DNA from: Candidatus Hydrogenedentota bacterium
GTDB lineage: Bacteria; Hydrogenedentota; Hydrogenedentia; Hydrogenedentales; SLHB01
Length of the DNA: 64,000 nucleotides
Direction of reading: 5' to 3'
NCBI GenBank assembly: GCA_016215105.1
Contig: JACRLJ010000045.1
Coordinates: forward strand, 6,373-70,372
Shown: positions 1-14,632 of the stretch, in pieces
Layout of the letters: every line of letters starts with the position of its first letter
How positions within the stretch are numbered: position 1 is the first letter of the stretch
Program-made: the position numbers and the translations under genes
The notes under the pieces: generated by a model
Told to the model about the DNA's origin: nothing
Databases searched by the model: none
Seen by the model: only the letters and a program-made list of their open reading frames with translations

Positions 1-1
1 G

Positions 2-871
2 ATTATTGGCGCGTTGGCAAATATAATGCTGGCGGCCGTCAAAGGAATTGCGGGAGTCTTGGGCAACTCCTACGCGCTTATTGCCGATGCGATGGAATCC
101 ACACTGGACGTGGTCGGTTCAATCGTGGTGTGGAGCGGTCTGCGGATCGCGATGACGCCTCCGGATGACGACCATCCCTACGGGCATGGTAAAGCAGAGC
201 CCCTGGCGGCCATTGTGGTCGCGTTGGGATTGATTGCGGCGGCAGTCGGAATCGCTATCGAGAGTATTCGAGAGATTCACACACCGCATCACGCGCCCCG
301 GGCGTTCACGCTGGTGGTCTTGGCGGCAGTGGTGATCGTCAAGGAGACGTTATTTCGCCTGGTGCTAACGGTGGGTACGGAAGTTCGCAGCACGGCGTCC
401 AAGTCGGACGCGTGGCATCACCGCAGTGACGCGCTGACATCCTGCGCGGCGTTTATTGGAATCAGTACCGCGTTAATTGGCGGGAAAGGGTATGAAATGG
501 CTGACGATTGGGCCGCCCTTTTCGCGTGTATCATCATCGCGTATAACGGGTGCCGCTTGATTCGGCCAGCGCTGGCGGAGGTGATGGACGCCGCCCTTTG
601 GAGCGATGTCGAGGAACATGTGCGGGAAATCGCGATTGGGGTGGACGGTGTGAAAGGGTTGGATATTTGCACGGTGCGCAAGATGGGGCTGGACTTTTTC
701 GTCGATCTGCATGTCGAGGTGGATGGAGGAATTTCCGTCCGGCAGGGGCACGACGTGGCGCATCGCGTAAAGGATAGTGTGCGCGCGGCGAATCCCGCCA
801 TTCGCGACGTACTAATTCACATCGAGCCGATTGGCGAAAGCCCCAAGAAGGGCGGGACACCGCAAATCTAA
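2..871 (+). CDS. Cation diffusion facilitator (CDF) transporter, 5' partial
   Basis: This is most of a CDF-family transporter, a cytoplasmic-membrane metal/proton antiporter that exports divalent metals. The frame is open to the left edge, so the first helix is probably lost. Visible signatures are DAMESTLD in an early helix, the HPYGHGKAEPLA loop, and DAWHHRSDALTS, which carries the H-x3-D metal site. A soluble C-terminal domain follows from about residue 195, with LHVEVD and IHIEP strands, as in CDF dimerisation domains. About 290 codons are present, close to full family length. Its stop overlaps by four bases the stop of the convergent oxidoreductase gene. The transported metal cannot be told from the sequence. 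Confidence 0.9.
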   Translation: MIGALANIMLAAVKGIAGVLGNSYALIADAMESTLDVVGSIVVWSGLRIAMTPPDDDHPYGHGKAEPLAAIVVALGLIAAAVGIAIESIREIHTPHHAPRAFTLVVLAAVVIVKETLFRLVLTVGTEVRSTASKSDAWHHRSDALTSCAAFIGISTALIGGKGYEMADDWAALFACIIIAYNGCRLIRPALAEVMDAALWSDVEEHVREIAIGVDGVKGLDICTVRKMGLDFFVDLHVEVDGGISVRQGHDVAHRVKDSVRAANPAIRDVLIHIEPIGESPKKGGTPQI

Positions 872-1893
872 GCGGGCAGGGGCAAGTGCAGGGGTAAGTG
901 TACGGTGCGCTTTTCCGCGGCGCTCTGATAGGCGGCCTGGGCCAATTCGACTGCCCGTAAGCCGTCCTCGCCGGGAATACTGATTTCGCGCTGGCCGAGA
1001 CACGCTTCTATGAACTCGCGCATTTCGCGCGCCACGCCGTTTTCCCACTCGGGGTGGATTTCCGCATAAGGAAACACTTCGCGCTCTTTTCCACTTTGGC
1101 CAATGAGCACTTGATCGAGAAGACTCTCGTAGTAGATGGTGCCGTTCGTCAGGAATACCTCGCCACTGTGACGCCCCAACTGATCGCCGCAACTGGAGGT
1201 GATGGTTCCAATCGAACCATTCTGAAATTCGATTTGTGCGGTGATGAAGTCGGAGAAATCAACTTCGGAATTCGGAAAACGGCGGTCGATCGCTGTGACA
1301 GAGGACGCCGGTCCGAGAATTTGCAGCATGAGATCAAGTTCATGGACGTTGACTTCCAGAAGCAGGCCACCGGAGGTCTCGCGCTGTAAGCGCCACGGAC
1401 GCGCCCAGCTTCCCCAGTTTCCCATCGTTCGTGTCGTACGCATGACCAAGGGGACACCGAGGTCGCCGGATGCGATACGTTCGAGGATAAAGCGATACGG
1501 GCCAATATACCGAAGTACTTGACCAATCATGAGTCCTTTGCCAACGGACTTTGCCGCGGCGATCATACTCATACATTGGTTAACGGATAAGCCCATGGGC
1601 TTCTCACAAAAAGTCGTAAGTCCGTGTTGAAGACAATCAATAGTTACCTGAGCGTGCAGGTGCTGAGGAACTGCGACGACAACTGCGTCAAGTTTTGCGT
1701 CGTGCAGCATCGTGCGGTAATCGGAAAATGTCGCGGGTTTTTCATTGGCGATACTCTTCGCTGAGGCCAACGCTTCCGGACTACCGTCGCATAGCGCAGT
1801 GACATCGGCTGCGGGGTGCGCAACCGCCGCGCGCAGCAGATCGGTTCCCATTGGGCCGAGCCCAATAAATGCCAGACGTACAACGTCTTTCAT
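868..1893 (-). CDS. Gfo/Idh/MocA family NAD(P)-dependent oxidoreductase
   Basis: This is a cytoplasmic sugar or inositol dehydrogenase-like protein of 341 residues. An N-terminal Rossmann motif (FIGLGPMG) begins near residue 9, the conserved EKP motif carrying the catalytic lysine lies near residue 97, and the C-terminal domain has a GGLLLEVNVHELD segment matching the family's active-site histidine region. There is no signal peptide, unlike the related Tat-exported protein at 42.6-44.0 kb. The start is supported by an AGGGGA ribosome site nine bases upstream. Upstream lies the candidate origin spacer, so any promoter must lie in that AT-rich DNA. The substrate is unknown. Confidence 0.88.
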   Translation of the reverse strand: MKDVVRLAFIGLGPMGTDLLRAAVAHPAADVTALCDGSPEALASAKSIANEKPATFSDYRTMLHDAKLDAVVVAVPQHLHAQVTIDCLQHGLTTFCEKPMGLSVNQCMSMIAAAKSVGKGLMIGQVLRYIGPYRFILERIASGDLGVPLVMRTTRTMGNWGSWARPWRLQRETSGGLLLEVNVHELDLMLQILGPASSVTAIDRRFPNSEVDFSDFITAQIEFQNGSIGTITSSCGDQLGRHSGEVFLTNGTIYYESLLDQVLIGQSGKEREVFPYAEIHPEWENGVAREMREFIEACLGQREISIPGEDGLRAVELAQAAYQSAAEKRTVHLPLHLPLPA

Positions 1894-2218
1894 TGTCTAG
1901 TTCCCCTAGATTTACCGATAACACAACATATTGTGAACGGGCGAAGAGCTACTTACGTAAGAGTTATCCACAGGTCAACCTGATCTATTGACGCAAAGAA
2001 CAGAATGCTTGAAAAAACAATTAATTTGAGTCGGAAACAGTTATTTCAATTCTAAGACACTGATACTAGATAGGTTACGCTTCGGTTTAAGACGGGCAAT
2101 TAGGCGCTACGTGGAATTCATCATATTCATCAACCGGGCGCCCATTGGAATCATTCACAAGTTATCCACACACACTAAGACGGGGATAGCGCGTAGCAAT
2201 ACACAATATATGGATGAA
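1894..2218. other. AT-rich spacer with DnaA boxes, candidate left half of oriC
   Basis: No gene is seen in these 325 bases. Two perfect DnaA boxes TTATCCACA lie at 1964-1972 and 2162-2170. The second is preceded, after an AG spacer, by a one-mismatch box TCATTCACA at 2151-2159, giving two boxes exactly 11 bases apart. Between them, about 2000-2070 is very AT-rich and could be an unwinding element. The same box-AG-box layout recurs on the other side of dnaN at 3910-3929. Confidence 0.6.
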
Positions 2219-3325
2219 TCAGATGCGGATCGGCATGATGACGTTGAGATACTTATCGGAAGGGGCTTCACTGAACGGCTTGAGAAGCCCTGGGCTCATG
2301 GCATCTTTCAAGACCAAACACACCATGTCAGACGACATGTGACGCAGAACGTCAAGCACAAAGTCCGGATTGAAGGCGATCTCGAGAGCTGTCCCGTCAT
2401 ACTCAATCGGCATATCTTCACTGTACTCGCCCACTTCAGGTGTTACAACACGCAAACTTAGCTGGCCTCGAGACAATCCGAAGCGCACTGAGTTAAACTT
2501 ATCACTCGTCATGGTTCGTGTACGGCGAACGGCTTCCAAGAACTGAGCGGCGTTTAGAACCGCTTCCTTATCGTGCTTCTTGGGAACAACCATGTCGTAG
2601 TTTGGGAATGAACCTTCGATAAGCGCGCTTACTAGACGCAGATTTCCAAAAGAAAACGCGGCCTGAGTCTCACCGATGTAGACATCGACTTCACCTTCAT
2701 CCGCCAGAAGACGCTCAAGCTCGCCAATCATTTTTCCTGGCACGATTACCTTGATATCGATCCCCTCGGGAATATTCTCGTTCTCGGCGTAGAGGCTCAT
2801 TCGACGGCCATCCGTAGCCACCGCTGTCAGTTTACCCCCGGTTATTTCAAGAAGTAACCCCGTAAGATTATATCGGGCCTGATCTGTGCAGAAGGCGAAC
2901 GACGTTCGCGCAAAGATGCCTTTTAATGTTGCTTGCGGCAATACCAGCGGTTCAACGCCCTCGAACGTTCGTATCGGAGGAAATTCATCCGGGGACATAC
3001 TAAACAAACGCGTTTGAATTCGACCGCAACTGAGCGTGATGACGTTGTTCTCAGACAACTCGATCGTAATTTCGTCTTGCGGTAATTCCGAAAGAATCGA
3101 CGCCATACGCTGAGAAGACACAGTCAACGAACCTGGCGCATCCACGGTGCAATCGACGGTACACTCGATACCAATCTTGAGATCAGTCGCCGACAAACGG
3201 ACAAAGCTGTCACCCGTTTCCACCAAGATATGCGAGAGAATAGGAAGCGCGGACTTTGAGGATACGACCGTCTTCACTTTGTTCACTGCATCGAGGAAAT
3301 CTTGGCGCTGAATTCTGATCTTCAT
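2219..3325 (-). CDS. dnaN: DNA polymerase III subunit beta (sliding clamp)
   Basis: This is the ring-shaped processivity clamp of the replicative polymerase. The 368-residue protein has the usual length and three repeated clamp domains (roughly 1-120, 121-245, 246-368). Typical segments are SALPILSHILVE, ATDGRRMS and the C-terminal PSDKYLNVIMPIRI, whose MPIR/MPMR type tail helps form the protein-binding pocket. I chose the ATG at 3325 because GGAG lies eight bases upstream; a GTG three bases earlier is possible. The gene stands alone, without dnaA, recF or gyrB beside it, but DnaA boxes flank it on both sides, as is usual for clamp genes near an origin. Confidence 0.96.
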   Translation of the reverse strand: MKIRIQRQDFLDAVNKVKTVVSSKSALPILSHILVETGDSFVRLSATDLKIGIECTVDCTVDAPGSLTVSSQRMASILSELPQDEITIELSENNVITLSCGRIQTRLFSMSPDEFPPIRTFEGVEPLVLPQATLKGIFARTSFAFCTDQARYNLTGLLLEITGGKLTAVATDGRRMSLYAENENIPEGIDIKVIVPGKMIGELERLLADEGEVDVYIGETQAAFSFGNLRLVSALIEGSFPNYDMVVPKKHDKEAVLNAAQFLEAVRRTRTMTSDKFNSVRFGLSRGQLSLRVVTPEVGEYSEDMPIEYDGTALEIAFNPDFVLDVLRHMSSDMVCLVLKDAMSPGLLKPFSEAPSDKYLNVIMPIRI

Positions 3326-3576
3326 CACTGGTTCTCCAGATTAGAGTCGAACGAACGGTTATTTGTGGTCTTAGTACAAGAATTTACTTAAGAGAAAAGC
3401 AGTCATAACAGTAAGGGGTGTGGATATACTGAGTAACACTGTAACTCTTTGATATTACGTAAGATATCATGTTAGTAACTTCTTGACTGCTATCCTCAAT
3501 TTATTCATTCTACCAACACATTAGCGGATTAGGTCTAAACGATATTCGTTAATCGGCGCCGGATAGTGTGTCAATT

Positions 3577-3613
3577 GTTGATAACATTGAACGGCGTGTT
3601 CAGTGTTATCAAC
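3577..3613. repeat. Near-perfect 16-bp-stem palindrome in the candidate origin
   Basis: The arms GTTGATAACA (3577-3586) and TGTTATCAAC (3604-3613) are perfect reverse complements. Inside them TGAAC (3588-3592) pairs with GTTCA (3598-3602), leaving one T/G position and the five-base loop GGCGT. Each outer arm resembles a DnaA box with one or two changes. It may be a protein-binding site or part of an origin structure. Confidence 0.75.
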
Positions 3614-3909
3614 CGAGTCCGTTTGCCGATGTTCCACGATACGCTTGATGTTATTCACACGCTCGTTTGAGGGTAATTTGTCGTAAGAAGCGACAATTTG
3701 ACATTACACAGACGGCCTGTGGAACACTCCCAATCACCGGAAAAACCAGAAAACGTGAAAAGTTGTAACTTGTTTATTATAAGCGTATTACAGAGAGCGA
3801 CATATCTCAACCGCGCCTGATTGTGATGTTCTAACTTATTACTTTACAACTACTTGCCTATGTGATAACCGATATAACTGCTAAGCGGTGGAAACACCCG
3901 GTGAACGAC

Positions 3910-3929
3910 TTATGCACAAGTTATTCACA
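3910..3929 (+). promoter_or_regulatory. Tandem DnaA boxes, 11-bp spacing
   Basis: TTATGCACA and TTATTCACA, both matching the DnaA consensus TTATNCACA, are separated by AG. The same arrangement with the same AG spacer is found at 2151-2170 on the other side of dnaN. Confidence 0.75.
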
Positions 3930-4083
3930 GGGAGCGAGCGGGTATCGTGACCCCGACGTATGCTAACAGAGGCGCCCTAGAATTGCAACTAGATCTTGTC
4001 CATAGCAATTCCAGGTGACAATAAACACGCATAAAAGCTTGTAAGCAAACGCCTTATAGACGTCTTGAATCGATCAAACAGGG

Positions 4084-6099
4084 CTAGGTTCTAATAACGC
4101 GTAAGAACTCCTCCGGAGAGACTATTCCAGCCTTTGTTTTCTCTCGACAGCGGTCAGCCATAGTCTTGAGTTTGACCGATTTTGCGATCTTATCAATGGG
4201 TTCATCGCTCGAGATCATTTTACGGAGATCAGGAGTAATCTCGACGACCTCGAAGATTCCGGTCCGGCCTTTGCTTCCGGTGTGGTAGCACGCCTCACAC
4301 CCTTTTCCGCGGTATAACTTCTTGGTGGCGTCCGGCAACCCGATGGACTTAAGAAGCGGCTTGGCAGGAACGAAGGGAGTCGCGCAGTTGCTGCAAATCT
4401 TTCGAACCAACCGTTGACCGATTACGGCAGTGAGGGCGCTTGCGATGAGGTACGAGGGGATACCCATGTTCCGCAGAGTGCTGATCGCTTCCGGAGCGTC
4501 ATTGGTGTGCATCGTACTGAAGACCAAGTGACCGGTCATGGCGGCCCGGATGGCGATTCGGGCAGTGTCCGCATCGCGGATTTCGCCGACGAGCAGGACG
4601 TCGATATCCTGACGTAACGCGGCGCGGAGTGTATTGGCGAAGGTAAGGTCAATGTCCGTATCGATTTGGACCTGGTTTATGCCTGAGAGCTGATATTCGA
4701 CCGGGTCTTCGAGCGTGACGATACTGTCGGTCATGACGTTCTTCTGGTTCAAGGCGGCGTAAAGTGTTGTCGTCTTACCGCTGCCGGTCGGTCCCGTAAC
4801 CAGGATCATACCGTAGGGCTGTTCGATCATACGGATGAGCTTCTGGTAATCGTCCTGCTCAAGACCCAAGTCTTTGATACCAGCCAGAACGGAGCTTTGG
4901 TCTAACAACCGCAACACTACGCGTTCACCGAGGTAGGTGGGTAAGGTGGCGACGCGGATGTCGAATTCCATATCGCCGACGACCATGCCAATATGGCCGT
5001 CTTGCGGATGGCGCGTTTCGGTTATGTCCATATCGGACATAATCTTGACGCGTGAGACGACGGCGGCTTCGATGTCTCGCGGAATGCTCATGACGTCGTG
5101 GAGAATGCCATCGATACGGTACCGCACGCGCATTTCGGGATCTTGCGGATCCAGGTGGATGTCCGTGGCTCCAGAGTTGGCCGCGCCCTCGATAATGGTT
5201 GACACGAGCTTCATAACCGGGGCGCCCGAAGCCTGCCGCGCGATTTCTTCGAATCGCGACTTATCCAACTTGGGACTCTCCACTGCAGCTTGTTCGTTGG
5301 CCATTGCATTCTTCTCCTCGGTAGCTTTTTCCTTGGACTTGGCTTTAGCTTTGGATTTGTCGTTCTTGCCGACAGCTTTTTCGGGGGTCTTGCTCAGCAT
5401 ATCCGGCGTTTTTGCGTCCGCAGGCCGTGTCGCCGGGCCAGCCTGCGCCAGCTTTTGTTTGAGCGCGACGTAGCGGGCGGCAATTTCTTGTCTGATATCG
5501 GGCGAGGTGGTCAAGACCGGATGAATATGTTTACCGAGGATCATGCCAGCGTCTTTGAGGCCGTCCCGTGTGTTGGGTTCTGTAATCAACACCGTGACCT
5601 TGTCCGCCTCGATGCGTATTGGCACCATCCGATGCTTGAGGGCGATATTCTCGGGAACGGCTTCCAAGGCGGTCTTTTGGCTTGGAGTCTTTTCGAGCTC
5701 CGCGAATTCCAGGCCATACTGCTTTGCCAGCGCCAGCGCCTTGGTGCGGGGCGTAATCCAGCCCCGATCCATGAGGATGTTGCCCAGCAGGCGTCCATTG
5801 CGCTTTTGTTCCGTCAAGGCGTCGGTGAGTTGCGTTTCCGTTATTGCCTTGAGTTCGACGAGGGCGCGGCCCAGGCTCTGGTGTTCATCTTTGACGGCTT
5901 TTCCAAACGGGTGGAACTCGTACCGCAGTACGTCTTCCATGACGCCGAAAGGAATCATCTTCAATTGCAGCAACTGCCGGTACCACGGAATGCCGCTTTC
6001 CTTTTCCCGCGCTTGCGCTCGGGCCAAGTCCTCGCGGGTAATCACGTCCTGCCGGATCAGTTCCTCACCTAGGTTTGCGCTACTGCGTTCATCAGCCAT
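4084..6099 (-). CDS. gspE: Type II secretion / type IV pilus assembly ATPase (GspE/PilB family)
   Basis: This hexameric cytoplasmic ATPase drives assembly of pilin-like fibres. Of 671 residues, the first ~215 hold repeated MshEN/GspE_N-type segments (LGEEL near 10, LGRALVELKAI near 77, LLGNILMDRGWI near 110), followed by a lysine-rich low-complexity linker (~216-275). The motor domain has a Walker A box GPTGSGKTTT near residue 436, a Walker B-type LLVGEIRD, the TGHLVFSTMHTND segment, and a tetracysteine zinc site (CSNC ... CEAC). The start ATG has AGGA eight bases upstream. It is alone here; its likely partners are the GspF and pseudopilin genes at 51-56 kb and the prepilins at 29-33 kb. GspE and PilB cannot be separated from sequence alone. 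Confidence 0.93.
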   Translation of the reverse strand: MADERSSANLGEELIRQDVITREDLARAQAREKESGIPWYRQLLQLKMIPFGVMEDVLRYEFHPFGKAVKDEHQSLGRALVELKAITETQLTDALTEQKRNGRLLGNILMDRGWITPRTKALALAKQYGLEFAELEKTPSQKTALEAVPENIALKHRMVPIRIEADKVTVLITEPNTRDGLKDAGMILGKHIHPVLTTSPDIRQEIAARYVALKQKLAQAGPATRPADAKTPDMLSKTPEKAVGKNDKSKAKAKSKEKATEEKNAMANEQAAVESPKLDKSRFEEIARQASGAPVMKLVSTIIEGAANSGATDIHLDPQDPEMRVRYRIDGILHDVMSIPRDIEAAVVSRVKIMSDMDITETRHPQDGHIGMVVGDMEFDIRVATLPTYLGERVVLRLLDQSSVLAGIKDLGLEQDDYQKLIRMIEQPYGMILVTGPTGSGKTTTLYAALNQKNVMTDSIVTLEDPVEYQLSGINQVQIDTDIDLTFANTLRAALRQDIDVLLVGEIRDADTARIAIRAAMTGHLVFSTMHTNDAPEAISTLRNMGIPSYLIASALTAVIGQRLVRKICSNCATPFVPAKPLLKSIGLPDATKKLYRGKGCEACYHTGSKGRTGIFEVVEITPDLRKMISSDEPIDKIAKSVKLKTMADRCREKTKAGIVSPEEFLRVIRT

Positions 6100-6254
6100 G
6101 TATCCGTCCTTTCTCAGTCAGGGGCCTTAGAGATCGCCGCATCATTCTATGAATAGTAATAATGAATCGCAAAGTATTTTTTTCAGCCGCTTGGACCGTA
6201 TCCAACTAGTGTACTGATTCGCACGGACATCGGTTGCGTTTCAACCGCTTTTCG

Positions 6255-6953
6255 TTACCTTGCGCAAGTTTCGTGACGGATGCCGCTGGAACCGGCGACG
6301 ATGAGATCCGTCGCCATGCCCAGAAACAGTCCGTGGCCTACGATACCGGCGTGCTCGTTCAATTTCTGGGCGATGGACCGGGGATCCGGGATAGGTCCGA
6401 AGGCGCAATCGAGAATGAGATTGCCCTGATCGGTGTTGAACGGCTGGCCGTCCGTAGCGCGGCGGAGTTTAGGGGTTGCGCCGATCGATTCGAGGTAGAG
6501 GGTGTGCGCGCGCAGTCCGAAGGGCAGTACTTCGACAGGAACGGGCCAAGTTGTTCCCAGAGTGGGTGAGCACTTTGACTCGTCGACGATGATGACGTAG
6601 CGCTTTGTGGCCTGGCCGACAATCTTTTCGCGGAGAAGAGCGCCACCGCCGCCTTTGATGACATTGAGGGCGGGGTCAACTTCGTCAGCGCCGTCAATGG
6701 TAATGTCTACTGCGGGCTGTTCTTCGAGTGTGGCGAGCGGGATACCGAGTTCTCGGGCGTCGCGCTCGACGGTCAGCGAACAAGGGATGGCCGCGATATC
6801 GCGCAGTTCTCCGGAGTGAATACGGTCCGCGATGCGCCGCACGGCCCAGATCGCGGTCGAGCCGTGACCTAGCCCGACTACCATACCGGGTTTGACAAAA
6901 GTGACCGCGTGTTCAGCGGCCATTCGTTTGAAGCTGGCTAGATCCTGATTCAT
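6255..6953 (-). CDS. rpiA: Ribose-5-phosphate isomerase A
   Basis: RpiA interconverts ribose 5-phosphate and ribulose 5-phosphate in the non-oxidative pentose phosphate pathway. The 232-residue protein has family length. The substrate loop reads GLGHGSTA (the usual GLGTGSTA with one change), the acidic motif is [10 protein letters not shown], and the catalytic-lysine segment is [11 protein letters not shown]. The frame stays open far upstream, but the family N-terminus starts at the ATG ending at 6953, so the longer version is rejected. It is transcribed away from the esterase gene; the two share a 121-base promoter region. The pentose product also feeds purine synthesis, whose genes lie 4 kb away. 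Confidence 0.93.
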
Positions 6954-7074
6954 CGTGCTTGTAGAATTCCGTTTGTCTGGCATTGAGTACGCACCGGCGG
7001 ATGAGACCGTCTTGCCTTTTGGCCTCCGCCGCGATAAGGTGTGCTTCGATTTTGGCGAGGAGGAGTATAGTGCA

Positions 7075-7821
7075 ATGACGATGAGATTGTATATTTCGGC
7101 GCTGATCGCGGTAGCCGCGTGTGGAGGGTGTGTGACACATCGTATGAGCAACGCAACTGCGGAGCGAGCCGGCATAGCGACCGGCTTCCTCAACAAGAGT
7201 TTGAAGGTCGACGGGAAAGAGCGCGGGTACGTGGTGTATGTGCCGCGCGCATATGATCCCGGCAAGAAATGGCCGCTCATCGTGTTCCTGCACGGCGCCG
7301 GCGAGCGCGGCGACGATGGGCTGATTCAGAGTGACGTGGGTCTTGGGCGCGCCATCCGTCAGAATCCGGACCGGTTTCCGTGTGTGGTGGTTATGCCGCA
7401 ATGCCCGGGCAGGGTGTGGTGGGACGAGGCCGCCGACGAGATTGAGTTGGCATACCAGAAGACGGTTAAGGAGTACTCGATCGACTCGAGCCGAACCTAT
7501 CTGACGGGACTTTCGATGGGCGGGTATGGAACGTGGGTCTACGGCGCCCAGCACATCGATCGATACGCTGCGCTGGCGCCGATTTGTGGGGGTGGAAAAC
7601 CGGAAGACGCCGCGACGTTGGCGAAGGTCCCCATCTGGGCGTTTCACGGCGCGGTGGACGAGGTGGTCAAGCCGGACGAATCGCGCAAGATGGTCGAGGC
7701 GGTCAAGGCCGCAGGTGGTAAAGTGAAGTACACCGAATATCCGGATCTGCACCATAATTCGTGGGACGCCACCTACGGCGACGCCGAGGTTATCAAGTGG
7801 CTGCTTTCGCAGAAGCGCTGA
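7075..7821 (+). CDS. Secreted alpha/beta-hydrolase (esterase-like) lipoprotein
   Basis: This 248-residue protein looks like a carboxylesterase/phospholipase of the prolyl-oligopeptidase-like group, often found beside polysaccharide-degrading enzymes. A short hydrophobic leader ends in VAAC, a plausible lipobox. The nucleophile motif is GLSMGGYG, the oxyanion segment is FLHGAGERG, the acid is likely in GAVDEVVKP and the histidine in DLHHNSWD. The start at 7075 has GAGGAGGAG nine bases upstream; a second ATG two codons later is possible. Its TGA overlaps an ATG (TGATG) that would begin the next gene, suggesting coupling to the glycosidase. The natural substrate is not known. Confidence 0.85.
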
Positions 7822-7866
7822 TGAGGGTGAATCGAAAGCGCGACTAAACCAGACGAGGGGCTGAAG

Positions 7867-10107
7867 ATGCCGCTATCTTTGGCAAACGGCGACATGGGGG
7901 CGATTATCTGGGGCGATGGCGCGCCGCTGAAGATTACGCTGGACAAGTACGACGCGTGGGAGTCGCGGGAGAAGTTTCCCGACGACGTCACCTACAAGCG
8001 GCTGCGGCAATTGGTGGCGGACAAGAAGACGGACGAGGCCGAGGGCATAATGCGCACGGAGCGCATCTATGAGAAGGGCCCGTATCCGACGCGGTTGCCG
8101 ATGCCGCGGCTCGAACTCAGCTTTGAGAAGCCGTTCGAGTGGGAACAGGGCCGGCTTCATCTGGCGACGGCGACAGCGGAGATTTCAGGGAAGGTCAACG
8201 GCGCCCCGACGACTGTTACGGCGCTGACAGCCGCGGACCGGAATGTGCTGGTGTTGGTTTTGCGCGGCAAGGCCGTGCCGAGTCCGGATGTGAAAGTCGG
8301 TCTGGCGTCAGAGGTGCAGGCGACGCTGCGCGGATGGGGCTATTCCGACCCTGAGGTACACGCCGAAGGCGGCGCGGGAACCTATTTCCAGAAGACACCG
8401 TCGGGGTACGCGTATGCGATTGCCTGGGGCCTTTTCCCGGGCACGGAGCCCGATACTCAAGCAATTGTTGTGTCGCTGGTATCGAGTGAAGAGAATCCGG
8501 ACCCGGTGGGCGCCGCGCGCGCCCTGGTCGAGGCGGCCTCGAAGGCGCCCGGTCAGCAGGACAAGCATCTGCGATGGTGGGCGGACTACTGGAATCGGTC
8601 GCGACTGACGATTCCAGACGCGCGGCTCGAAGCCCTGTACTACATCGAAATGTATAAGCTGGGGTGCGTGTCGCGTCCGGGGAAACTTCCGGTGACGCTG
8701 CAGGGTCTTTGGACACTGGACGGTGGCATGCCGCCGTGGTCCGGCGATTACCACTTGGACATGAACGTCCAGCAGTCGTACTGGCCAATTTACACGGCAA
8801 ATCGCCTGGAGCTTGGCCAGCCGCTATACGATACGTTTACGAAATGTGTTCCGCGGTGGCGGAAAGATTGCCAAAAGTTCTTCGGGTTTGATGGAATTTG
8901 GGCGGGTTGCGCGATCGGGCCGCGTGGCGAGCGGATCTGGGGCTACTCCGGGGTCGAGCTGTGGCCGGGCAACGCGGCGTGGCTGGCGCAGCACTACTGG
9001 CTGCATTTCCTATATTCCTGGGACAAGACCTTCTTGCGCGAGCAGGCGCTGCCGATGTTGCGTCTGTCGTTTCAAACGTACTCGAACCTGCTCGAAGCGG
9101 ATGCGGACGGCAAACTTCATGTTCCGCTGAGCTACTCGCCGGAATGGGGCGAGGGCGGGTTCAGCGCCTATTGCAAAGACCCAACGGTTGACCTTGCGTT
9201 GATTCGGTTCCTGTGCGGCGCGCTGCTACAGTCGAACGAGGCGCTGGGCGTTGAGGACCCGTTGACACCCCGCGTAAAGGAGGTGCTCGACAAGCTGGCG
9301 CCCTACCCGCAGCGCGATCATCGCCTGCTGATCAGCGCGGACACGCCGATGACGCATTCGCACCGTCATTTCTCCCATTTGATGGCAATACATCCGCTCG
9401 GGGTGTTGACCGTCGACGGGAGCGAGGACGACCGCGCGCTGATTCGGAATTCGCTGCTCGAGATACGAACCAAAGGTCTCGGCGAGTGGACTGGCTGGTC
9501 GTATCCGTGGATGTCGTTGATCGCATCGCGCGCGGGTTACGGCAACACGGCCTGGCAAATGCTCGATTTGTACGCCAACGCGTTCATCACGCCGAACACC
9601 TTCCATGTCAATGGCGATCCCCGCATTCACGGTGTGTCGCTTTTCGACTATGAGCCCATGACGCTCGAAGCGGGATTTGGGGCGGCGGCGGCGATCATGG
9701 AGATGCTGCTGCAGTCGTACAACGGGACCATTCGGGTGTTTCCCACGATGCCGGATCGCTGGCATGACGCGCACTTCGAAGATTTGCGCGCCGAGGGAGC
9801 GTTTGTCGTGACGGCAAAGATGGCCGCGGGCAAGGTGGTGTTTGCTAGTATCCGGTCCGAGGCGGGACGCCCGTGCCGTGTCAAGAATCCGTTTGGCGCC
9901 GCCGCCATGACGGTGGAAAACGTCACGAAGGGAACGCAGCAGGATGTCACGGGAGAATCCGCGATCTTTGACACGGAGGCCGGATCGGTTTACCTGCTCT
10001 ATCCCGCCGGCGCGAAACCGGACGCTCAGGCGATGGGGCTTGGGCCTCTGAATCGAGGGGCCGGGCAGGCGAACTATTACGGCGTGAAGCGTCTGGCGCG
10101 GTTCTAG
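7867..10107 (+). CDS. GH95-like glycoside hydrolase, probably 5'-damaged
   Basis: This 746-residue protein resembles family 95 glycosidases (alpha-L-fucosidase or alpha-galactosidase type), with an (alpha/alpha)6-barrel core. It opens with LANGDMGAIIWGDG, matching the family's N-terminal GNGRLGAMVFG strand. Late segments NTFHVNGDPRIHG and EAGFGAAAAIMEMLLQS match the family's C-terminal active-site region. Homologues normally have a signal peptide and N-terminal residues that are missing here. An ATG at 7821, overlapping the upstream stop, runs only eight codons before a stop, while the main frame is open from 7831 without an ATG. A frameshift or small deletion near 7821-7866 is likely. The usable start at 7867 has GAGGGG six bases upstream. 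Confidence 0.8.
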   Translation: MPLSLANGDMGAIIWGDGAPLKITLDKYDAWESREKFPDDVTYKRLRQLVADKKTDEAEGIMRTERIYEKGPYPTRLPMPRLELSFEKPFEWEQGRLHLATATAEISGKVNGAPTTVTALTAADRNVLVLVLRGKAVPSPDVKVGLASEVQATLRGWGYSDPEVHAEGGAGTYFQKTPSGYAYAIAWGLFPGTEPDTQAIVVSLVSSEENPDPVGAARALVEAASKAPGQQDKHLRWWADYWNRSRLTIPDARLEALYYIEMYKLGCVSRPGKLPVTLQGLWTLDGGMPPWSGDYHLDMNVQQSYWPIYTANRLELGQPLYDTFTKCVPRWRKDCQKFFGFDGIWAGCAIGPRGERIWGYSGVELWPGNAAWLAQHYWLHFLYSWDKTFLREQALPMLRLSFQTYSNLLEADADGKLHVPLSYSPEWGEGGFSAYCKDPTVDLALIRFLCGALLQSNEALGVEDPLTPRVKEVLDKLAPYPQRDHRLLISADTPMTHSHRHFSHLMAIHPLGVLTVDGSEDDRALIRNSLLEIRTKGLGEWTGWSYPWMSLIASRAGYGNTAWQMLDLYANAFITPNTFHVNGDPRIHGVSLFDYEPMTLEAGFGAAAAIMEMLLQSYNGTIRVFPTMPDRWHDAHFEDLRAEGAFVVTAKMAAGKVVFASIRSEAGRPCRVKNPFGAAAMTVENVTKGTQQDVTGESAIFDTEAGSVYLLYPAGAKPDAQAMGLGPLNRGAGQANYYGVKRLARF

Positions 10108-10319
10108 AGGCGCGGCCAGAAAGCCTCCGCGCGAGGCGCTTCGAGCGTGATGTGCGGCGCCGGGGACGTTTTTCTTCGCGTTCTTGGTCTGTGATATACT
10201 CTGGCCGCCTGTGAGTTACCTGTGAGCGCCATCCGCGCTTGGCGCTCCGTTGTCGTCGGCGCGGTAAACAAGTCGTATGTCATCCAGTCGCGGCCACACC
10301 GCCTTGGGCCGCCATAAGT

Positions 10320-10339
10320 CGAAAAGGCGCGCCTTTTCG
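10320..10339. promoter_or_regulatory. Perfect 20-bp palindrome just upstream of a start codon
   Basis: CGAAAAGGCGCGCCTTTTCG is a perfect palindrome ending 13 bases before the GTG start at 10353 and adjoining the GGGGAGAGAG ribosome site. It could be a regulator-binding site; with no loop it is a poor RNA hairpin. Confidence 0.45.
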
Positions 10340-10352
10340 CGGGGAGAGAGTC

Positions 10353-10880
10353 GTGAGTGAAGAAAAAGAATCTGTACAGACGAGTCAGTCCGGTCAGGCC
10401 GGCGAAGAAGCCGCGGCTACTCCGGCGGCGGTAGCGAAGAGCGGGTCCAATCTCCGGCTCAAGATCTTGCTGGGGTTGCTACTCTTGTGTGTTATCGATG
10501 TTGCCTACGAGAAGGTGTGGGGCAATATGTTGGCGCGCAGCCTGAAACCGTTCGCCGAGGAGAAGATGGCCGAGTTTAGCAAGAATCCCGGCGGGCTGAA
10601 GGAAGAATACGCGTCCGGTGTCTCCGCGGCGCGCGAGTATGTGATGTTCGGGGAACGCCTGGGAAAAGTCTCCATCTATATCCGGTCGTCCGATGAGGGC
10701 GGGGAGCACTACTCGGAAGTGGACTATTTCTACGAGAAAGACGGCAGCGGATGGAAGTTCAAGGAGAGCGGTGGCTGCGACGAGAGTCAGTGCCGTCCCG
10801 AAGCGATGAGAGCGTTTGGTCTGAAGCCGACCCCGGCTCCCCCGGTTCCGGTAAAGGCGCCGACAAAGGAAAAGTCCTAG
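10353..10880 (+). CDS. Hypothetical single-pass membrane protein
   Basis: I do not recognise this 175-residue protein. After an acidic, alanine-rich cytoplasmic tail (1-33) comes one hydrophobic helix (LKILLGLLLLCVIDVAY, about 35-51), then a soluble domain with mixed charge and a proline/lysine-rich end. The domain contains YIRSSDEGGEHYSEVDYFYEK, split here in description as a charged beta-like segment near 110-130, and two cysteines (CDESQC). I chose the GTG at 10353 because GGGGAGAGAG lies just upstream; an earlier start would add an arginine-rich stretch without homology. It stands alone between the glycosidase and the convergent purQ. Confidence 0.7.
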   Translation: MSEEKESVQTSQSGQAGEEAAATPAAVAKSGSNLRLKILLGLLLLCVIDVAYEKVWGNMLARSLKPFAEEKMAEFSKNPGGLKEEYASGVSAAREYVMFGERLGKVSIYIRSSDEGGEHYSEVDYFYEKDGSGWKFKESGGCDESQCRPEAMRAFGLKPTPAPPVPVKAPTKEKS

Positions 10881-10894
10881 GGTCTGGCGAGTGG

Positions 10895-11692
10895 CTAGTT
10901 GAAGGCGTCCCGAGCGTACTCGACCGCGTTTCGGAATAGCTGGAGGCCTGCGCCTTCGGCGGGCAGGGGTTCCCGCGTGGCGCGCGGGTGATGCGCGCGC
11001 TCGGTGTAGGCCTCGGGGTGGGGCATGAGTCCGAAGATGCGGCCGCTGGCGTCGCAGATTCCGGCGATATCGTCAACGGACGCGTTGGGATTGGCCGGAT
11101 AGGCGCCTTTGGCCGGAAGACCAGCCCGCGTGCAGTACCGCAACGCAACGTGGCCGCCGTCCTGCAATGCGCGCAGCAAAGTGTCGTCCTGTGCGAGAAA
11201 TCGGCCTTCCCCGTGTCGCACGGGCAACTCGAACGTGCGCAAATTCCTGGTCCAAACACAAGGTGACTGCGGGTTGGGTTGCAGGTAGACCCAGCGGTCC
11301 TCGAAGCGGCCGGACTCGTTGTGCGTGAGCGTGACCTCTTGCCGGAACAAGCCCCCGATCGCCGGCAGCAATCCCATCTTAACCATCACCTGAAATCCGT
11401 TACAGATCCCGATGGCGAGTTTTCCGTCGGCCACGAATTGCTTGAGCGCAGCGCCGAGCTTGTAGCGCAAGCGGTTCGCGAGAATTTTCCCGGACGCCAC
11501 GTCGTCGCCAAAGGAGAAGCCGCCGGGAATCGCGAGAATGTGATAGTCGCGAAGGCGATCCGGCGCGTCGATCAAATCGTTGAGATGCGCGCGTTCGGCG
11601 GTGGCGCCGGCGCGGGAGAACGCCACCTGCGTTTCGGCGTCGCAGTTGATTCCAAACCCTGTCAATACCAGCGCGCGAACGGCCACGGTCAC
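10895..11692 (-). CDS. purQ: Phosphoribosylformylglycinamidine synthase glutaminase subunit PurQ
   Basis: PurQ releases ammonia from glutamine for step four of purine synthesis. The 265-residue class-I amidotransferase has the nucleophile cysteine in GICNGFQ (near 91), the oxyanion segment PGGFSFGDD, and the His/Glu pair in LMPHPEAY. The GTG at 11692 overlaps the purL TGA as GTGA, typical of translational coupling; GTG codons at 11695 and 11686 are alternatives. The frame extends upstream inside purL, which is not used. It is the last gene of purM-purL-purQ and converges on the membrane protein gene. Confidence 0.93.
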   Translation of the reverse strand: MTVAVRALVLTGFGINCDAETQVAFSRAGATAERAHLNDLIDAPDRLRDYHILAIPGGFSFGDDVASGKILANRLRYKLGAALKQFVADGKLAIGICNGFQVMVKMGLLPAIGGLFRQEVTLTHNESGRFEDRWVYLQPNPQSPCVWTRNLRTFELPVRHGEGRFLAQDDTLLRALQDGGHVALRYCTRAGLPAKGAYPANPNASVDDIAGICDASGRIFGLMPHPEAYTERAHHPRATREPLPAEGAGLQLFRNAVEYARDAFN

Positions 11693-14632
11693 CACCTCAA
11701 GGGCTTCTGCCAAGCTTCTTTCAGCTCGGCTAACGGCGCATCCAAGAGCACGCCGGATTGTCCGACTATTTTCAACATGGGTTCTGGAATGACTTCGCCG
11801 AGCCGCACGACCACGCTGCCGATCAGCGCTCGCTCGAATGCGGCTGCGCTTGCGGCGGGAACGCTCACGACGAAGCGGCTTTGGGATTCGCTGAATAGCG
11901 CCACGACCGGATTGTCGACGCCGATTCCAGATAGGTCGAGTGACATGCCGTAGCCACCCGCGAACGCGGATTCGGCCAAGGCGACGGCCAAGCCTCCATC
12001 CGAACAATCGTGGCACGAAGCCACGAGTCCGTGCTCCATGGCCGTGGCGAGGGCGCGGTAGAGCCGCAGGGCAGACGCGAAGTCCACTTTCGGGACCGAG
12101 GCGCCGAGTTGGCCGCGCAGGCCGAGGTATTCGCTGCCGCCCATTTCGTGTGATGTCTTCCCGAGTACATAAACAATGTCACCGGGATTCTTGACGTCCA
12201 TCGAGACGACCTGGTTCACATCGTCGAGCACGGCGACCGCGGTAAAGAGCACGGTCGGCGGAATCGAGATCTTGGTGTCGCCGATCTTGTAGTCGTTCTT
12301 CATTCTGTCTTTGCCGCTGATGAGCGGAATGCCGTAGTACGTGCAGGCGTCGTACAGCGCTTCGCCACACCGGACCAGCTGTGCGAGCTTGTACTCGCCG
12401 TCGGGCGTCTTGTCGCTTTGCACGGGATCGGGCCAGCAGAAATTGTCGAGACCGGCGATTCGTCCCGGCTGGGCGCCAACGCAGACCAGATTGCGCACCG
12501 CCTCGTCCACCGCGCAGGCCATCATCCAGTAGGTGTCGAGGTCGCTGTACTTGGGGCAGATGCCGCAGGCGACGGCGACACCGCGCTGCGAGTCATGCAC
12601 CGGCCGAATTACGGCCGCGTCGCCGGGGCCGTCGTGATCCGCGCCTTGGAATTGTTTGAGGACGCTTTGCGCGAGCACTTCGTGGTCGTACATGCGCACG
12701 AAGGATTCTTTGCTGCACACGTTGAGCGAGCCGAGAACGGCTTTGAGTTCGGCTTCGAGATCGGCGTACGCGGGGATCGTCTCGGGACCGAGGACGGGAG
12801 GCGTCCACACCGCGTTGAGGTCCATGCGCGGCACGCCGTCGTGGAGGAACTCCATGTCGAGCGAGGCGATTCGCTTACCTTCGTAGTAACACTCGAGACG
12901 GCCGGAATTGGTGAAGGACCCGATTACAGTGGCTTCGACGGCGCGGCGGCGGGCCAGATCGAGAAACGCTTGGAGACGGTCCGGCGCCACGGCCAAGGTC
13001 ATGCGTTCTTGCGCCTCGGACAGAAAGATTTCCCACGGAGCAAGGCCGGCGTATTTGAGCGGGGCCTTGTCGAGATGGACTTCGGCGCCGCCGGGATCCT
13101 TGGCCATTTCGCCGACGCTCGACGAGAGGCCGCCGGCGCCGTTGTCAGTGATGCAGGTGTAGAGTTCGAGGTCGCGCGCCTCGAGCAGGAAATCGGTCAT
13201 CTTCTTCTGGGTGATGGCGTCGCCAATCTGCACCGCGGTGGCGGGAGATCCCTCGTGCAATTCCTCAGAGGAGAACGTGGCGCCGTGAATACCGTCTTTG
13301 CCGATGCGGCCGCCGGTCATAACGATGAGATCGCCGGGCCGGGCCGCCTTGACGTGACTGGGCTTGCCGCCTATGGTGGCGGGGATGAGGCCGCCGGTGC
13401 CGCAGAAGACCAGGGGCTTTCCGAGGAAGCGCTCGTGAAACACGATGGCGCCGTTCACGTCGGGGATGCCGCTTTGATTGCCGCCGTCCTTGACGCCCTG
13501 ATGCACGCCGCGCAGTACCCGGCGCGGGTGAAGCAGGCGCGAGGGAATGGCTGCGTCGTGAAAGGGGGAGGCAAAACAAAACACGTCGGTGTTGAAGATG
13601 CACTTGCATCCGAGACCGGCGCCGGCGATGTCGCGATTCACGCCGACTATGCCCGTGATGGCGCCGCCATAGGGGTCGAGCGCGGAGGGGCTGTTGTGCG
13701 TTTCGGCTTTGACGGCGATGTTCCACTGGTCGTCGAATTTGATGATGCCCGCATTGTCGTGGAAGACGCTGACCAGCCAATTGATGTGGCGGCCGACTTC
13801 CTCAGTGACGCGGCGAACGTAGGTCTTGAAGAGGCTGTCTATGACGCGTGTCTTTCCGGTCTCGTCGGTGTAGTGGACGCGCGCGTCGAAAATCTTGTGT
13901 TTGCAGTGTTCGGACCACGTCTGCGCGAGGATTTCGATCTCGATGTCCGTGGGCTGGATGGGCAGACCGAGTTTCTTGCGGCGGGCCTGCACATCGGGCG
14001 TGGCGTAGTAGGCTTGGATGGCCTTCATTTCGCGGAGTTCGAGCGCGAGGGTCATCGAGCGGCTCAGCGCGGTGAGCGCGTCGTCCGAAACGCCGAGATT
14101 GACCTGGTGGACTTCGGCGGAGCTGCGTTCGGTGACGACCGGCAGGCCGAGCAGGGATTGGCCCTGGAGTTTGGTCATCTCGTCGGCGGACTTGACGACC
14201 CAGCGTTGTATCAACTCGTTGGCCAGCAGATCCCGCGCAATGTGTTCGCACGTCTTTGCGTCGATGGCGCCGCTCAGCAGGTATTGGGTGGACTTGTAGA
14301 CGGCCTCGCCGGGGGCCAGGCTGCGGCCGAGGGTATCGGCGATGCCTTCCGCGGCGCTCTTGCCAACGTTGTCCGTGACGCCGGGCCGGAACCCGACCTC
14401 GATGAGATAGGAGAAATCGTCGGCGAGCGTAGCGTCGGTGACGGAGCGTTGAATCACGGGATCGGTAAACAACTCCGCGCGGACACGGTCGAGTTCCTCG
14501 GGCGTGACCGTCGCATTGACGGTGTAGACGTCAATGACGCGCACCGCATCGACGGCGATACCCAGGTCTTCGGCAAGTTGCTTACGAACGCCGGCCCCGG
14601 ACGCGTCCGGGAAGCCGGGTTTCATCGCGACT

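Follow-up and report, generated by a model that had tools for sequence, protein, structure and literature searches.

A predicted chromosomal replication origin at dnaN in a Hydrogenedentota bacterium, with DnaA boxes on both sides of the gene

Described origins and the dnaN locus

Replication origins consisting of two parts split by dnaA are known from Bacillus and Helicobacter (PMC4285127), and in the cyanobacteria Cyanothece 51142 and Anabaena oriC lies directly beside dnaN, with dnaA often distant (PMC4674748, PMC6323995). The Hydrogenedentota locus described here resembles the cyanobacterial origins in both of the latter respects. However, their boxes are of the TTTTCCACA type and, as described, lie on one side of dnaN (PMC4674748, PMC6323995), whereas the present locus has TTATNCACA boxes, which form another cluster past dnaN, and its other neighbour is GspE. 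With oriC of Bacillus subtilis (incC, basal unwinding system) the locus shares the succession of box, GC run, trios (3'-GAT-5') and AT-rich DNA opening towards dnaN, clear in the phylum alignment but degenerate in the window; in both, a distal group of boxes is accompanied by another cluster on the far side of a gene (PMC6669920, PMC8287927). The gene between the halves is dnaA there and dnaN here, and in Hydrogenedentota dnaA is unlinked and the second cluster is found in part of the phylum only. Likewise, the two-part oriC of Helicobacter pylori has two box clusters with one gene between them and trios in one half (PMC5043019, PMC8235120), but its spacer gene is dnaA, and both its box consensus and its phylum are different. 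No origin of Hydrogenedentota, and none that is split by dnaN or has boxes on both its sides, was found described in the open-licence papers searched. The suggestion in the initial annotation that dnaN in the middle would be a new layout stands to this extent, but an oriC beside dnaN with a distant dnaA is already known from cyanobacteria. The predicted origin is of a recognisable type, in a layout for which we found no description in these papers.

The window, i.e. the whole stretch of 64,000 nucleotides that was analysed, is located on contig C85 of a genome bin of 171 contigs and 6.68 Mb. Central to the locus is dnaN for the beta sliding clamp (2219-3328, minus strand, ATG at 3325), which is single copy in the genome and 62-73% identical to most Hydrogenedentota dnaN; nearly all relatives in this identity range are labelled Candidatus Hydrogenedentota. 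Hydrogenedentota-type dnaN was also observed on contigs labelled Nitrospiraceae, Balneolaceae and Rhodothermaeota (L071, L081, L090), which are probably mislabelled or mixed bins. An upstream spacer (3329-4083) separates dnaN from a gene for a GspE/PilB-type ATPase (T2SSE; 4084-6099, minus strand), which adjoins the predicted origin in nearly all relatives. On the other side, a spacer at 1894-2221 leads to a gene for a Gfo/Idh/MocA oxidoreductase (868-1893, minus strand). This neighbourhood is not conserved, and depending on the locus the next gene encodes Gfo/Idh, CheX, an alginate lyase, DUF502 or an epimerase. As had been proposed, the two spacers framing the clamp gene are AT-rich, with 58% AT upstream and 59% downstream vs 40% for the window. 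An Rfam search of window positions 1-12000 gave no match.

DnaA boxes and an unwinding module upstream of dnaN

Exact TTATNCACA boxes are located at 1964, 2162, 3651, 3910 and 3921, all on the plus strand, and there are no others in the 64 kb. The expectation was 0.65, and none of 100 shuffles contained five or more. Both of the annotated box-AG-box pairs are present (2151-2159/AG/2162-2170 and 3910-3918/AG/3921-3929), the first box of the left pair having one mismatch. Since single boxes show no excess genome-wide (66 vs 74 for the reversed-pattern control), the signal at dnaN is one of local clustering. The exact box-NN-box layout was found at two sites in the 6.68 Mb, namely the dnaN locus and a position ~370 bp upstream of dnaA.

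Across 33 dnaN loci, the density of exact boxes was 2.17 per kb over the first kb upstream and 0.61 over the first kb downstream, compared to 0 within dnaN and 0.014-0.019 elsewhere. At the ~30 loci of Candidatus Hydrogenedentota the enrichment was 100-fold upstream and 30-fold downstream, and the reversed-pattern control was nearly empty. The upstream spacer, the predicted oriC core, has a similar length in most relatives; over 31 loci it contains 64 exact boxes vs 1.3 expected from shuffles of the same spacers. Within this spacer the boxes recur at set positions, as judged by locus counts taken by eye from the box table of the 31 loci. The predicted distal pair, with TTATGCACA as its outer box (3910-3918, plus strand) and TTATTCACA as its second (3921-3929, plus strand), corresponds to tandem boxes spaced by 11 bp that are located near -590 to -660 from dnaN in 22 of 31 loci. 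The predicted mid box TTATTCACA (3651-3659, plus strand, at -331) has a same-strand counterpart near -332 in ~24 of 31. Two further predicted boxes, each with one mismatch, lie on the minus strand: TTATCAACA (3576-3584), which faces dnaN, and ATATCCACA (3419-3427), beside the trios. Opposite-facing boxes near -246, -160 and -106 occur in many of the 31 loci; TTATCAACA, near -246, and ATATCCACA, near -100, hold positions that recur in relatives. The boxes upstream of dnaN are conserved, at fixed distances and on fixed strands.

Approximately 100 bp before dnaN, 30 aligned spacers show a box, a C-rich run, an A at every third position and then TTTATATA. The successive trio middle positions carry A in 97, 90, 87, 93 and 73% of the 30 loci, and on the opposite strand such A-phased columns read as the repeated 3'-GAT-5' DnaA-trio known from the basal unwinding system (PMC8287927, PMC6669920). 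These column statistics replaced an automatic trio score, which was noisy and did not single out the window's site; the best matches of relatives by this score cluster near -100. In the window, a CCCC run (3415-3418) and the predicted trio array TAC TGT TAT GAC TGC (3399-3413) together span 3399-3418 on the minus strand. This array starts five bases past ATATCCACA and is degenerate: three of its five triplets, not consecutive, fit NAN. A box beside at least three trios within 16 bp (the BUS criterion) is clear in the phylum alignment, the window copy differing as just stated. Next to it lies the AT-rich stretch that is predicted to be the first DNA unwound (3370-3397, minus strand); positions 3350-3399 are 68% AT, and in relatives the trios are followed by a TTTTATATATA-like consensus and the conserved TTTATATA. 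Judged by its sequence, the ~750 bp spacer has the appearance of a complete oriC upstream of dnaN, with a distal pair, a mid box and a box/C-run/trio/AT-rich module.

Box clusters beyond dnaN

Downstream of dnaN, the window carries a predicted pair formed by TCATTCACA (2151-2159, plus strand, one mismatch) and the exact TTATCCACA (2162-2170, plus strand), and a far box, also TTATCCACA (1964-1972, plus strand), 198 bp from the one at 2162. Two box clusters separated by dnaN were found in the window and 12 other loci. The bipartite origin of the initial annotation finds partial support: the second cluster, with boxes on the same strand, keeps its position and spacing, but does so in 13 of 31 loci.

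Conceivably, the origin consists of one part that is wholly upstream of dnaN, and the boxes past the gene represent a site of their own for DnaA binding or titration, or a relic, with no role in opening. All unwinding features are indeed upstream, 18 of 31 loci lack the downstream boxes, and similar box clusters exist on other contigs of relatives. Moreover, the downstream boxes are scattered on the dnaN tree, with a patchy distribution and no phylogenetic clustering of the module. Against this stands the fact that the 31 downstream regions contain 16 exact boxes, all on one strand, vs 0.7 expected, a 23-fold excess over shuffles. Two downstream boxes lie 178-211 bp apart in eight loci although the next gene differs, and it is chiefly the loci with a long spacer that have downstream boxes. 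We consider a one-part origin to come close to an even chance. We regard the downstream spacer as a candidate for the second half of the origin or for an accessory site of DnaA binding, and it is about equally probable that its cluster does or does not function as a true second half. Regulation of the next gene by these boxes was rejected because that gene differs while the box positions hold.

Box groups were also observed away from dnaN. A box pair with a third box 187-199 bp away occurs on contigs without dnaN in three relatives (L239, L241 and L242, in G007, G028 and G025, respectively); these groups are alike the cluster downstream of dnaN and may be relocated copies. In one relative, TTATGCACA/TTATACACA repeats at distances of 11 bp are arrayed on several contigs (L244, G009:C15) and look like an iteron or repeat element.

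GC skew, dnaA and partition sites

A GC-skew step was defined over 15 kb on each side of a site and compared with 335 control positions. At dnaN, the minus-to-plus step exceeded the 99th percentile of controls in G006, G010 and G033 and was at or above the ~94th percentile in G034, G037 and G039, while the cumulative skew minimum of G030, likewise a weaker case than the first three, fell inside dnaN. For dnaN loci with short flanks, the right skew was higher than the left in 16 of 19. G003 had next to no step, and that of G021 was reversed. In the genome of the window itself, dnaN is flanked by positive skew on either side, mildly so on the left, and this test gave no support because only 8.3 kb of contig is assembled on that side. 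The skew switch that the initial annotation proposed to look for is found at dnaN in several relatives, but not in the window's own genome.

In other phyla, the same search mostly returned dnaA directly before dnaN. In contrast, dnaA is absent from every Hydrogenedentota dnaN locus and is on another contig (C5) in the window's own genome, so the search for dnaA elsewhere showed it to be remote. The DnaA protein possesses a box-binding domain. Another, long ATPase of the DnaA type, in which no box-binding C-terminus is evident, was observed as well (L002, G000:C24:93493-94212, a 790-codon frame), and similar long proteins occur in most relatives.

An alternative that has to be weighed is that the boxes only control dnaN transcription via DnaA, with the origin being elsewhere, for instance at dnaA or at a box cluster on contig C89. 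A similar tandem box pair does lie upstream of dnaA, and in the own genome parAB and dnaA share a contig, at a distance of 15 kb. Furthermore, C89 contains the densest box cluster, and a minus-to-plus skew step of 0.10 is present at 44 kb, ~10 kb from it. However, neither dnaA nor C89 was found to have a trio array or is strongly AT-rich, and the dnaA promoter region has just 1-3 tandem boxes. The skew across dnaA is flat in the own and most related genomes, and no step at the dnaA loci of five genomes exceeded 0.053 (G003, ~95th percentile of controls). With no clear skew step and no trios, the dnaA locus was rejected as origin. In addition, parS/rsmG accompanies dnaN, and regulation would not require boxes at fixed spacing over 700 bp together with an unwinding module. 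A purely regulatory role is therefore improbable. The C89 cluster itself comprises six boxes in 128 bp on one strand (C89:33784-33911; L234:17785-17912), three exact and three with one mismatch, and is located upstream of an rsmD-like gene. In G031 and G025, box pairs likewise precede rsmD, and the cluster is possibly a datA-like titration or regulatory site. Chance matches in spacers that are AT-richer than the genome can be dismissed, since the conserved boxes, their excess over same-spacer shuffles on both sides of dnaN and the reversed-pattern control refute this reading.

Full parS sites (GTTCCACGTGGAAC) adjoin rsmG. This gene shares its contig with dnaN in 11 genomes (10 with a listed parS site, one with rsmG only) and with dnaA in none. 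The contigs in this test average 2% of a genome, and with random placement assumed, sharing in 11 of 29 cases has a chance probability of <1e-7 even at 5% per contig. In the own genome, no full parS site was present near dnaN on C85 within three mismatches; the nearest true match is C10:7480, at the rsmG end, on a contig separate from that of dnaN. Conversely, the own genome, G002 and G019 each have parB and dnaA on one contig. Most simply, an old gidB-parAB-dnaA-dnaN neighbourhood would have been split, whereby dnaN kept the sites and the genes for initiation and partition left.

Inside the predicted origin, two parS half-sites form a split inverted pair, with GTGGAACA as the outer arm (3719-3726, plus strand) and TGTTCCAC as the inner arm (3630-3637, plus strand). 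The inverted pair, 87-93 bp apart, is conserved in 17 of 30 loci, while 0.16 loci would be expected by chance at any spacing of 70-110 bp. The same heptamer, GTTCCAC, is bound as a half-site by ParB of Pseudomonas aeruginosa, where hundreds are scattered, in contrast to the one fixed-spacing pair here (PMC10419367). The pair probably provides ParB contacts that tie the origin to segregation. A fuller scenario, in which a two-part origin surrounds dnaN, its site elements, from DnaA boxes and trios to the half-sites and the full parS close by, stayed with dnaN and rsmG, dnaA and parAB moved away together and the half-parS pair couples initiation to segregation, is, taken as a whole, less likely than not.

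Together, the boxes, the trio and AT-rich element, the skew switch of relatives, the parS linkage and the remoteness of dnaA give good support to an oriC at dnaN, in agreement with the initial annotation once the comparison was extended to the phylum. We conclude that the region flanking dnaN is very probably the chromosomal replication origin of this bacterium. We infer that DnaA from the distant gene would bind upstream of dnaN, both at the distal pair (3910-3929) and at the mid box (3651), and that bending or looping of the DNA could carry it to the box at 3419-3427. DnaA-ATP would extend from there over the trio repeat (3399-3413) and open the AT-rich stretch that immediately precedes dnaN. 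On the other side of the gene, the boxes at 1964-2170 may serve as an accessory second cluster adding DnaA by looping, comparable to the two-part origins of Bacillus and Helicobacter, and the half-sites at 3630 and 3719 would link the origin to segregation through ParB.

These findings offer a testable origin for a whole uncultured phylum, and estimates of growth rate from the peak-to-trough ratio of read depth need the position of the origin. They also indicate that a box and trio architecture can persist after the departure of dnaA, and the split parS pair suggests that the origin is physically and directly coupled to segregation. Lastly, the loci with and without the second cluster represent a natural comparison for why some origins are split.
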